A program made the position numbers and the translations under genes. The notes beneath the pieces were generated by a model. The model did no database searches. It was given only the letters and a program-made list of their open reading frames with translations, and was not told the origin of the DNA. Below, piece by piece: positions 7,327 through 10,782 of a DNA stretch of 64,000 nucleotides. The stretch spans positions 84,674 to 148,673 of the forward strand of contig JAVYUU010000004.1 of assembly GCA_038728085.1 (NCBI GenBank), written 5' to 3'. Position 1 is the first letter of the stretch; each line of letters starts with the position of its first letter. The DNA is from Candidatus Bathyarchaeia archaeon (GTDB lineage: Archaea > Thermoproteota > Bathyarchaeia > Bathyarchaeales > Bathycorpusculaceae).

Positions 7327-7863
7327 TCACAGCTTGTCTAAAATTTCTCGTTCTATTTCTTCCTCACCTATTTTGAAAGTGTCCGGCTCCTCCCTTCTCA
7401 ATATTGTCTTTAAGGCTGCTGGACTTAATTGTCTAACAAGCCGCAGAATTTCTCCTCTGGCATTTTCAAAATGTTTTTCAAGAATAGTTTCTTCTCGGTA
7501 CATGACTCCGGCAAGTGGGCAAATTTTCTCCATTTTTAAGTACCATTCAATTTTGCCCGTTTTGGCGTTTATGTCGAAGGTTATGGGTCCAGCTACGCAT
7601 GTTTCGGGTTTTACTGGATGCACGATGCATTTGCGTGTGGTTTTGTCGTAGAATATGCAGTAGCCGTCTGCTGTTTCTCTTGGAAAAGTGTATTCGGCGT
7701 GCACAAACGGGTTATCAATATTAATGCCATGGATCTCCAAATATTCCAGAATTAATTTTTCCCGCTCCGCTGTTATGGGTGGTCTAGCATCCCGGCAACA
7801 GTTTATCTTACATGAACCACAGATGTCAAAGAAGTTTTTCTGTCTCTCCCCTTCATTTTGCAA
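7327..7863 (-). CDS. YkgJ-family cysteine-cluster protein
   Basis: The 178-residue protein carries the CxxCxxxCC signature of the YkgJ/UPF0153 family near its N-terminus (CGSCKINCC). Further cysteines lie in CIFYDKTTRKC, the HPVKPETC motif and a later KICP. The family is thought to bind zinc or an Fe-S cluster, and its biochemical role is unknown. It lies 12 bases downstream of the GCS2-type ligase on the same strand, so the two are probably co-transcribed. That makes it a candidate partner of the amidoligase locus. The start is TTG at 7863. Confidence 0.82.
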   Translation of the reverse strand: MQNEGERQKNFFDICGSCKINCCRDARPPITAEREKLILEYLEIHGINIDNPFVHAEYTFPRETADGYCIFYDKTTRKCIVHPVKPETCVAGPITFDINAKTGKIEWYLKMEKICPLAGVMYREETILEKHFENARGEILRLVRQLSPAALKTILRREEPDTFKIGEEEIEREILDKL

Positions 7864-7875
7864 TCATGGCATCCC

Positions 7876-9072
7876 CTAGAGGAACGGCTCATTGTTTTCT
7901 AGACATTTTAAAAGTTTCGAGTAAACATCCACGATTGCCTCGTTTAAGTCGGTTTTCTGCATCCTAACAAGAACCCTCTCCCTAATAGCATCAGACAAGT
8001 TTCCATGTTCAATGCGCCTCTCTATTAATTGGAGGTACTCCTTCTCCTCGGGTGTGGCGTTCTCCCAAGCAATTTTCATAAAGTATCTGCACACATGCCT
8101 GGCTGTCGGCCCGCTTGGATGGAACACCTTCGCCTCTAACCCATATTTTATAATGGATTTAAAGTCTTCAGCTAAAACTTCCGTAGGCAAAAGGGGCGAT
8201 GATGGTGCGGTTTCCATCAAGCCTCTGAGGAGCGCCCTTATGAAACAGCTGAGAGCCACATCGGATTTTATGCATTCCTGTTCATCCATAACCCGAATTT
8301 CCAAGGCTTTTCGATCAAAACGTATCGTTACGCCTCTCGAGTTAACCCAGTCCTTATTTAGGATGCATGGGTGAGCACCCGCCTTAGCCAAGTCGCTGGA
8401 GTAGTGCCCAATAATATCCCGTTTATACTGCTCAAGGGATTGAATGTACTCTGGAACAACTTTTCCAGTTATGGATGGCACTTCCTTCTGATTTTCCATG
8501 TAAAAGTGAAGGCGATTATCTACATATTCGCCTAAACGCCCCTCATAAATTGGGGAGGAAGCCGAAACCGCCGGGAGATAGGCGCAGATGTTCGCCAGCA
8601 AATTATGCATTAAAACGGCTTTGCCTTCACTTGAGTATGGAAGGTTAAGCTGAAAGCTTTGGATGTTAAGCCATCCGTGCTGTTTAAGGTTGAAGATTCG
8701 GCTGAACGCCTCATAAATCTGCCTATGGCGGTGTGGCCAAATCGCTGTTTCCCAAAGCCTAAGCGTTGGATGCATCCCCGTTCCCAAGAGCCTTGCGCCA
8801 TAACGGCGTTTAAGCATGTCGCTAAGCCTTAAAACCGCCTCATGCATTGTCTTCTCGAAGACTCTCGGCGACCTAAAGGGCTTGTTGGACTTAACTTCCA
8901 TAACGTGGAGTTGAAGCTCCTTACCAAAAGTGAAATTGCTAAACTCCACAAAATTTACAACCCTTCCATAAACATCTCTTATGACTTTGTCAACTATGGG
9001 TAGAGGTCTCAAATTTTCATCAACAAGCGAAAACTCATGTTCTGGACCAAGAACCTCTAGGGTTCTATACGT
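7876..9072 (-). CDS. GCS2-type carboxylate-amine ligase, apparent ACG start
   Basis: This glutamate-cysteine ligase (GCS2) family protein would have about 398 residues. The family forms gamma-glutamyl or similar amide bonds using ATP. Its hallmark GPEHEF motif and the LVDENLRPLP that follows are encoded upstream of the first TTG (9012). The frame is open back to a TAG at 9105-9107, with no ATG, GTG or TTG in between. An AGAGGT lies eight bases before an ACG at 9072, which would give a protein starting YRTLEVLGPEHEF, so I place the start there. Later conserved parts include GTGMHPTLRLWE, HGWLNIQSFQLNLP and a C-terminal arginine region (RVMDEQE). It is divergent from the RLAN/ATP-grasp pair and precedes the YkgJ gene. 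Whether ACG is used or is a consensus error is unknown. Confidence 0.85.
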   Translation of the reverse strand, partial: TYRTLEVLGPEHEFSLVDENLRPLPIVDKVIRDVYGRVVNFVEFSNFTFGKELQLHVMEVKSNKPFRSPRVFEKTMHEAVLRLSDMLKRRYGARLLGTGMHPTLRLWETAIWPHRHRQIYEAFSRIFNLKQHGWLNIQSFQLNLPYSSEGKAVLMHNLLANICAYLPAVSASSPIYEGRLGEYVDNRLHFYMENQKEVPSITGKVVPEYIQSLEQYKRDIIGHYSSDLAKAGAHPCILNKDWVNSRGVTIRFDRKALEIRVMDEQECIKSDVALSCFIRALLRGLMETAPSSPLLPTEVLAEDFKSIIKYGLEAKVFHPSGPTARHVCRYFMKIAWENATPEEKEYLQLIERRIEHGNLSDAIRERVLVRMQKTDLNEAIVDVYSKLLKCLENNEPFL

Positions 9073-9110
9073 ACAGACAGACCTCTTTTGGAAAGTTTGC
9101 TATGGCCCAA

Positions 9111-9119
9111 AATATAAGC
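9111..9119 (-). promoter_or_regulatory. candidate TATA box of the GCS2-type ligase gene
   Basis: On the minus strand this reads GCTTATATT. About 26 bases downstream lies near 9089, which would give a short leader containing AGAGGT and the proposed ACG start at 9072. This spacing is the main promoter-level support for that start. Confidence 0.4.
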
Positions 9120-9164
9120 TTATAGTTTCAAGAGTCAACGAAGCCTTTCAGAGGCAACAGTTAA

Positions 9165-9173
9165 TTTTAAATA
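9165..9173 (+). promoter_or_regulatory. candidate TATA box of the RLAN/ATP-grasp genes
   Basis: The sequence TTTTAAATA lies in the space between the divergent genes. It would place transcription start near 9197, just upstream of the TTG codons at 9200 and 9218, giving a very short leader. No strong ribosome-binding site precedes either codon. Confidence 0.35.
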
Positions 9174-9217
9174 TGTTGAAGTGTTTTAGCGATTTTCTGT
9201 TGTCTGGTGTCTCCTGT

Positions 9218-9907
9218 TTGCTGGTCGTCTCAAACATAAATCTGAAAACCAACGTGCCCACAACAGAACCCTCAACATTCCTCAAGTCTTCTGTTAGGGA
9301 CTTTATTCTCAACATAAACAATGACTACCGGTACATGAGGACGGGCTACTATGTCTCGCTCCACGCCGAAATCCTAGGCAACGATGTTATTCCAACGACA
9401 GAAAACGCCGTGGACGCCTATAGGCCACCAATCCTACTGACTAGGGCAGCGAAGAATGGGATACCTATCGCGCCATTTATGGTAACGGACTCTGCAAAGC
9501 AGATAATGGCTGAATTCGCCTTTCCAGTTGCGCTTTTCCCCGTCAACCCATTCTCATTTAATGGCTTCCAGACAGCCAAAAATAGAACCGCCTTATACAA
9601 GGCTGTTAAAAGCCTAAGCATGAACTACCGCTATGTCGTCTGTGCCCAACCGCTTAAAGGCGAAATTTCATCTATTAAGTCCTTCTTTGGCGAGTGCGCT
9701 TTAGAAGATCCCAGGGTTAAAGCCGTCGCCAGAAAAGTTTATGAAGTTTTCCAGATTCCAGTGTGCAAACTGTATGTCCAACGCCTTAATGGAGAGGCTC
9801 GCCTGTGCGGGCTTCAACCTTTAAAGATGGAGGAACTTCAGCCCTCCGACATTGATTTGCTTTCTAAGATGGTTTCCCGGTTTTCCGGGAAAGGATGGTC
9901 TGATTGA
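9218..9907 (+). CDS. RLAN-domain protein (RimK-like ATP-grasp N-terminal domain), stand-alone
   Basis: The roughly 229-residue protein matches the RLAN domain, which in bacteria usually sits at the N-terminus of a RimK-like ATP-grasp ligase. The diagnostic stretch is NDYRYMRTGYYVSLHAEILG. Here the domain is a separate gene whose TGA overlaps the TTG start of the ATP-grasp gene (TTGA at 9904-9907). The two products therefore probably act as one enzyme. The frame is open far upstream, but that part overlaps the GCS2 gene. I chose TTG 9218 because the domain homology starts there and a TATA-like box sits about 45-50 bases ahead; TTG 9200 or ATG 9173 are alternatives. The biochemical role of RLAN is not established. 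Confidence 0.75.
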   Translation: MLVVSNINLKTNVPTTEPSTFLKSSVRDFILNINNDYRYMRTGYYVSLHAEILGNDVIPTTENAVDAYRPPILLTRAAKNGIPIAPFMVTDSAKQIMAEFAFPVALFPVNPFSFNGFQTAKNRTALYKAVKSLSMNYRYVVCAQPLKGEISSIKSFFGECALEDPRVKAVARKVYEVFQIPVCKLYVQRLNGEARLCGLQPLKMEELQPSDIDLLSKMVSRFSGKGWSD

Positions 9908-10782
9908 CGCGGATAGCATGTTTTGTTGAAAAATACAATTTCTCCAATTCAAGGGAAGCGGAAGCCTTGCAAAGCTTCAGGCAAACAGCTGAAAAGCTGG
10001 GACACGAGTTTCACTTCATATTTAGGAATGGGCTTTCCGAAATTCCAGAGTATGACGCCGTCTTCATTAGGGCGACTACGGATCCCCTCTACACGGCTTA
10101 CGTGGTCTCGAAAACGGCTTGGGAGCTTGGCTTAAGGGTTGTTGATGACCCTATTTCGATTAAGATTTGCGCCAACAAGATCCACCAGTATCGCCTTTTC
10201 GAAAAATATGGTGTGCCCTATATCCCCACAGTCTTCCTCAGCAGGGAGGAATTTCATCATAAACAGATTGCCGAGATCTTCGAACTTTTTGGAAAGCCTG
10301 TCGTGATAAAGGCGCCCTACACGAGTTTCTCGAGGTACGTGGAGAAAGCCTCTTGTGAGACAAGTTTCCGCGATATTGCCAAACGCTTCTTCAGGCGGTC
10401 AGACTACATTGTTGTGCAGAAGTTTATGCCATCCCGCTTTGACTGGCGTGTAGGCGTATTAAATGGCGAAGTCCTGTATGTGTGCAAGTACATGATGCCA
10501 AAGGGTAAATGGAAACACGGCGTAAAAAGACGTGGAAAACCAAGCTTCATATGGGGAAGAACCGTCACCCTAAAACGGGACAACGCACCCCAAAGGCTTA
10601 AGGAGACAGCTCTAAAAGCCTGCAGCATTATTGGGAAGGGATTGTATGGTGTTGATATTAAGGAGGTTAATGGCGACTATGTGGTGGTTGAAGTCAATGA
10701 CAACCCAAGCATATACAAGGGGCAGGAAGACCTCCGCGACAAGGACATATACGAGAAAATCTTAAGATTTTTGGCAGAATGA
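9904..10782 (+). CDS. RimK-like ATP-grasp ligase
   Basis: The 292-residue protein has the ATP-grasp fold: a preATP-grasp N-terminal domain, the nucleotide-binding lysine segment (GKPVVIKAPYTSFSRYVEKA) and the metal-binding glutamate/asparagine motif (VVVEVNDNPS) near the end. RimK-like enzymes ligate amino acids to a carboxylate through an acyl-phosphate. It starts with a TTG that overlaps the stop of the RLAN gene, after a GGAAAGGA site, so translation is coupled. Together with the divergent GCS2-type ligase it forms a two-ligase locus like those predicted in bacteria to make small peptides or peptide tags. The substrate is unknown. Confidence 0.85.
   Translation: MTRIACFVEKYNFSNSREAEALQSFRQTAEKLGHEFHFIFRNGLSEIPEYDAVFIRATTDPLYTAYVVSKTAWELGLRVVDDPISIKICANKIHQYRLFEKYGVPYIPTVFLSREEFHHKQIAEIFELFGKPVVIKAPYTSFSRYVEKASCETSFRDIAKRFFRRSDYIVVQKFMPSRFDWRVGVLNGEVLYVCKYMMPKGKWKHGVKRRGKPSFIWGRTVTLKRDNAPQRLKETALKACSIIGKGLYGVDIKEVNGDYVVVEVNDNPSIYKGQEDLRDKDIYEKILRFLAE

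Follow-up and report, generated by a model that had tools for sequence, protein, structure and literature searches.

We analysed a stretch of 64,000 nucleotides, in the following called the window, from the genome of a Candidatus Bathyarchaeia archaeon (assembly GCA_038728085.1, contig JAVYUU010000004.1, positions 84,674 to 148,673 of the forward strand). The subject of this analysis is a divergent locus of four genes. In a Pfam search of the window proteins all four domains score over the Pfam cut-offs:

7327..7863, minus strand: CxxCxxCC/YkgJ-like metalloprotein, 178 amino acids (PF03692, 3e-8)
7876..9072, minus strand: GCS2-type amide ligase, 398 amino acids, with a proposed ACG start (PF04107, 2e-33)
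9218..9907, plus strand: RLAN protein, 229 amino acids, TTG start (PF14401, 6e-19)
9904..10782, plus strand: RimK-like ATP-grasp ligase, 292 amino acids (PF08443, 4e-10)

The domain matches, strands and gene order bear out the first-pass annotation of this DNA, which had described a GCS2-type ligase with a cysteine-cluster protein behind it and, on the opposite strand, an RLAN protein with a RimK-like ATP-grasp. The proposed translational coupling of the latter two is also seen, as the 3′ end of the RLAN gene overlaps the 5′ end of the ATP-grasp gene by 4 bp (TTGA, 9904-9907). For RLAN the open reading frame beginning at 8981 was considered as the start and was replaced by the TTG at 9218. The genome of the window comprises 1.43 Mb, is 98% complete and contains a single GCS2 gene.

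The four genes form a coherent set whose conservation goes far beyond chance. Among 121 relatives, most of the sequences compared here being metagenome-assembled, RLAN is present in 37 genomes and GCS2 in 36. Both occur together in 35 of the 38 genomes which possess either of them, two having RLAN only and one GCS2 only (Fisher p 7e-27, a value which overstates independence because the genomes are related to each other). This joint presence holds also where both gene pairs sit at separate sites of the genome. An ATP-grasp gene is found at all 37 RLAN loci, some of them clipped by the contig end, and GCS2 is immediately followed by a close YkgJ orthologue whenever the two genes share a contig, including in genomes which carry RLAN and the ATP-grasp elsewhere. 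The YkgJ protein, taken at first for an unexpected member, is thus a regular partner, and its eight cysteines (15, 18, 22, 23, 69, 79, 89, 115) are invariant in 49 aligned orthologues.

A scan of named genomes detected the module also in Njordarchaeum guaymaensis, in a second Asgard metagenome-assembled genome (MAG) and in Archaeoglobales. We further analysed 295 genomes of the Archaeoglobi/methanogen phylum, in which the label methanogen is inferred from the presence of methyl-CoM reductase (MCR). By hidden Markov models, RLAN was found in 34 and a GCS2 orthologue in 36 of these genomes, 29 of 41 having both. Five further genomes, apparently with GCS2 and without RLAN, turned out on direct inspection to have all four genes in an operon, their RLAN being diverged and just under Pfam detection, giving 34 of 295 genomes with both; the Pfam RLAN model overlooks diverged members. 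MCR is present in 21 of the 25 RLAN-bearing genomes of this phylum which we tested. Joint conservation of the four genes elsewhere had been named as a check of the original proposal, and the set is indeed kept in at least three archaeal groups. The divergent layout, however, is found only in the window and in most Bathyarchaeial loci, whereas Asgard, Archaeoglobi and MCR-bearing genomes carry all four genes as straight operons with differing gene orders. In total we observe three layouts: RLAN>ATP-grasp>GCS2>YkgJ, which is the single operon of the Asgard archaea, RLAN>ATP-grasp>YkgJ>GCS2, and the divergent form. RLAN and the ATP-grasp are separate genes in all archaeal loci read, and we discarded the idea of a broken fusion gene.

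The ATP-grasp protein, which is about 70-90% identical among the relatives, retains D251, E263 and N265, aligned to the metal-binding residues of ArgX. Its best solved relatives are ArgX (3vpb) and RimK (7qys), and by NCBIfam scoring its relatives include MptN, CofF and LysX. TIGR00768 matches it at 3e-20, under the equivalog cut-offs, and it misses every NCBIfam equivalog cut-off in the tests for RimK (72.8 versus 143.4 bits), LysX (60.8 versus 275.6), MptN (60 versus 350) and CofF (24.8 versus 300). AlphaFold models RLAN with a pLDDT of 78, the first ~65 residues being of low confidence. In Foldseek this model hits LysX, ArgX, Ddl and RimK at a probability of 1.00 (E 1e-7 for LysX, ArgX and Ddl), and VIA-align gives Z values of about 10-12 (up to 11.9) across about 160-180 residues. 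The RLAN profile also aligns with its own ATP-grasp neighbour in hhalign. RLAN is therefore predicted to have the pre-ATP-grasp plus ATP-grasp topology. In a comparison for the catalytic lysine and the D/E-x-N metal ligands, RLAN shows VFAVNP and GLQPL at the positions where its presumably active partner has VVIKAP and VEVNDNP, the C-terminal correspondence coming from a low-depth model, and the E-x-N metal-ligand pair is missing in the alignment. With this fold and the E-x-N pair apparently absent, RLAN is likely best read as a pseudo-ATP-grasp partner subunit which seemingly has lost its metal ligands.

The GCS2 model (pLDDT 84) is closest to the plant glutamate-cysteine ligase 2gwc (TM 0.71) and to YbdK (TM 0.68) in Foldseek, and the identity to known ligases is 14-17%. 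The protein retains the GPEHE, Q/H-x-N and E-I-R-x-x-D motifs and has the plant-type Q-x-N-L motif and an SPxxEG block. It scores below the NCBIfam equivalog cut-offs for glutamate-cysteine ligase (GshA), the best value being 33.9 versus 176.4 bits. The YkgJ protein carries in addition to its cysteines a KPETCxAGPxTFD motif.

The conserved N-terminus of GCS2, TY[KR]xLEVxGPEHE, has no ATG, GTG or TTG start in the window. A start at the TTG at 9012 would remove the conserved GPEHE motif, and conserved coding runs to 9072, with ACG as the sole plausible start there; we therefore rejected the TTG. The region between the two gene pairs is suggested to contain these elements:

9070..9072, minus strand: proposed non-canonical ACG start of GCS2 (ACG conserved across Bathyarchaeia and Asgard archaea)
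9082..9085, minus strand: GAGG resembling a Shine-Dalgarno motif, 10-13 nt upstream of the ACG (such a motif is present in 40 of 42 sequences)
9110..9124, minus strand: TATA-like, AT-rich stretch, possibly the promoter of GCS2-YkgJ (AAATATAAGNTTATA, conserved among the close relatives of the window)
9158..9175, plus strand: putative BRE/TATA-like promoter upstream of RLAN (CAGTTAATTTTAAATATG, core conserved in aligned Bathyarchaeial loci)

The core of the putative RLAN promoter, [CT]AGTTA[AG]TYTTAAATA, is strongly conserved over the aligned Bathyarchaeial divergent loci. The first codon of GCS2 is ACG in all 42 distinct Bathyarchaeial and Asgard sequences of a set gathered by a pattern containing ACGTAY. 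In a scan of the same clade unconditioned on this pattern, ACG was found 41 times, with three exceptions: in G108 the ACG position is occupied by ATG, and in the sister pair L043/L048 the ACG is replaced and an ATG stands two codons before it. Constraint on the ACG thus appears to relax where a nearby ATG has been gained, judging from this pair. In the 42 sequences amino-acid conservation starts exactly at the ACG and all other conserved codons vary synonymously, and at the other conserved threonines of the gene all four codons are in use. A canonical in-frame upstream start is absent from 28 of the 42, 17 of which also have none among the first eight codons, and the Shine-Dalgarno-like motif begins 9-15 nt upstream of the ACG. 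In the tree, the Asgard GCS2 sequences stand beside those of Bathyarchaeia with full support, and the ACG is therefore old in this clade. Archaeoglobi GCS2 genes have an ATG start six codons downstream of the ACG position. The RLAN and ATP-grasp genes mostly start with GTG or TTG, those of YkgJ and deoxyhypusine synthase mostly with ATG. From these comparisons, translation of GCS2 appears to start at the ACG in Bathyarchaeia and Asgard archaea. We found no archaeal ACG start in the literature, an absence which proves little. In genes such as infC (AUU) which keep a non-AUG start, the uncommon codon is often a sign that translation is under feedback control. The present case shares with these the conservation of an unusual start, here however it is ACG, in archaea and in a metabolic gene. 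It is possible, though we have more doubt than confidence here, that the ACG serves as a feedback device controlling the translation of GCS2 in a new archaeal cofactor or peptide pathway with a pseudo-ATP-grasp RLAN subunit.

The genes around the module were also inspected. In locus L115, CofE and a weakly MfnD-like ATP-grasp lie upstream of RLAN, and MFS transporters adjoin the module in three lineages (L043, L044, L046, L048, L057; L115; L158). These neighbours therefore fit a role in small-molecule or cofactor metabolism. CitMHS/ArsB-like permeases adjoin GCS2 in L157, L158 and L160. A deoxyhypusine synthase gene recurs in Bathyarchaeia, Asgard archaea, L115 and L158 (L032-L067, L110, L112, L115, L158), often directly behind the ATP-grasp gene in Bathyarchaeia and convergent to YkgJ in Asgard archaea. 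We did not adopt it as a fifth member, as 116 of the 121 relatives have a match to this family irrespective of the module, and regard it as a lead only. A gene for an Auto_anti-p27 zinc-ribbon protein adjoins RLAN in L114, L116 and L118 (Archaeoglobi) and in L153 and L154, which are MCR-bearing and have RLAN and ATP-grasp only; in the latter two loci rps19e is also close to the module.

We suggest, with somewhat more confidence than reserve, that the four genes act in a single amide-ligase pathway. A shared biosynthetic pathway is supported by their conserved coupling and by what they encode: two ligase folds, a presumed pseudo-subunit and a metalloprotein. The RimK-like ATP-grasp would be the active ligase, and RLAN, a catalytically dead paralogue, would form a complex with it, the two being one polypeptide in bacteria. 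GCS2 would act as second ligase with a glutamate-cysteine-ligase fold, probably forming a gamma-glutamyl or similar amide bond, and YkgJ could be an Fe-S or Zn protein of the same pathway. In whichever order these steps might proceed, the product would most likely be an amide-linked small molecule or an extended cofactor side chain in anaerobic archaea. Several observations weigh against this proposal. A Planctomycetota MAG (L117) has the RLAN-ATP-grasp pair and no GCS2 family match in its genome. Loci L153-L156 have the same pair with GCS2 and YkgJ not nearby, and no GCS2 orthologue was found in those genomes. Conversely, the well-complete genome G108 has GCS2-YkgJ with RLAN undetected. Ftr is present in 116 of the 121 relatives and does not separate carriers of the module from non-carriers. 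Finally, the low-confidence part of the RLAN model has to be considered, and the evidence for lost metal ligands comes from an alignment.

Which product might be formed? A side chain of a one-carbon (C1) cofactor is a serious candidate because of CofE and the MfnD-like ATP-grasp in L115, the MCR in many carriers and the fact that the enzymes of methanofuran chain extension are unidentified. Archaeal methanofurans carry linear gamma-linked glutamates whose chain-extending enzymes are unidentified, and two ATP-grasp enzymes serve bacterial methylofuran (PMC8141765). In its specific form this explanation holds that methanofuran, a methanopterin variant or F420 has its glutamate side chain lengthened by the module, with gamma-linked residues attached by GCS2 and alpha- or gamma-linked ones by the RimK-like enzyme. 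The relatedness of the ATP-grasp to MptN, CofF and LysX would suit such a role. Ftr is, however, near-universal in the relatives with or without the module, which is therefore not needed for the core cofactors, RLAN was not found in the controls M. jannaschii and M. acetivorans, and MCR was not found in the window genome, both Asgard genomes and four module-bearing Archaeoglobi-type genomes. Bacterial carriers such as Legionella are not known as users of methanofuran, methanopterin or F420. We thus regard this specific form as rather unlikely.

Another product could be a low-molecular-weight thiol, that is, a glutathione analogue of anaerobic archaea, with gamma-glutamylcysteine made by GCS2 and a third residue added by the ATP-grasp. 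The closest structures and plant-type motifs of GCS2 speak for it, as does the pairing of the same enzyme folds in glutathione synthesis, but GCS2 is just 14-17% identical to known ligases, the ATP-grasp is RimK/LysX-like and RLAN and YkgJ are without counterpart there; we consider this route improbable. We hold the same low expectation for a protein modification or peptide tagging, resembling that of ribosomal protein S6 by RimK or that by Pup ligase. In its favour are the nature of RimK as a protein ligase, the distant fold relationship of GCS2 to PafA/Dop and the recurrence of deoxyhypusine synthase among the neighbours; yet the family of this synthase occurs in almost every relative, with or without the module, and no recurrent tag protein, LysW-like carrier or protease was seen in the neighbourhoods read. 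Protein tagging thus seems less likely than a small molecule or cofactor side chain, which would probably be gamma-glutamyl. It is very improbable that GCS2 acts alone as an ordinary glutamate-cysteine ligase and has its neighbours by coincidence: fold and catalytic motifs are intact, but the phyletic coupling to RLAN is near-perfect even where the genes are unlinked, and the operons differ in gene order.

New here are the predicted ATP-grasp fold of RLAN, the split, YkgJ-bearing archaeal variant and the apparent ACG start of GCS2. If the pathway is common to methanogens, Archaeoglobi, Bathyarchaeia and a few Asgard archaea, it would mean a new metabolite or cofactor for anaerobic archaeal metabolism, and the coupling of the four genes makes the pathway directly testable. 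As a likely dead ATP-grasp, RLAN would provide a structural role for a family of 'unknown' proteins. Should the conserved ACG start be confirmed, it would be uncommon among archaea, would lead gene callers to truncate GCS2 and would hint at translational control.

How does the archaeal set compare to known systems? MyfA/MyfB (methylofuran side chain), MptN, CofF and LysX/ArgX are likewise RimK-related ATP-grasps, by which small molecules or a carrier receive glutamate, whereas the archaeal ATP-grasp scores far under the NCBIfam cut-offs of MptN, CofF and LysX. We know of no RLAN, GCS2 or YkgJ partners of these enzymes. Glutathione synthesis by GshA (GCS2-type) and GshB also pairs a GCS2-fold ligase with an ATP-grasp ligase, the latter being GshB-like and not RimK-like as in the archaeal set, which has RLAN and YkgJ in addition.

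Closest are the bacterial RLAN-RimK/GCS2 loci, which Iyer et al. are said to have predicted in 2009 to be amidoligase systems. In the open papers we found no report uniting RLAN with RimK and GCS2, although absence there proves little. Our bacterial comparison is drawn from plasmid records, in which RLAN-RimK fusions occur in Legionella, Pseudomonas, Azospirillum, Tistrella and Aeromonas. A plasmid of Legionella adelaidensis carries the operon RLAN-RimK > GCS2 > N-formylglutamate amidohydrolase, and its GCS2 is 33% identical to that of the window over the full length. This operon agrees with the earlier view of the locus as an archaeal counterpart of the bacterial loci. Common to both is RLAN and a RimK-like ATP-grasp with GCS2. 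In bacteria, however, RLAN and RimK are one protein, whereas the archaea have separate, translationally coupled genes, and YkgJ stands in the place of the N-formylglutamate amidohydrolase, which was not recognised near the archaeal module by reading of the open reading frames (selected neighbours being Pfam-scanned). With the fused RLAN-RimK and the Legionella operon on the bacterial side, the archaeal set is therefore a split, YkgJ-bearing variant of the bacterial system.

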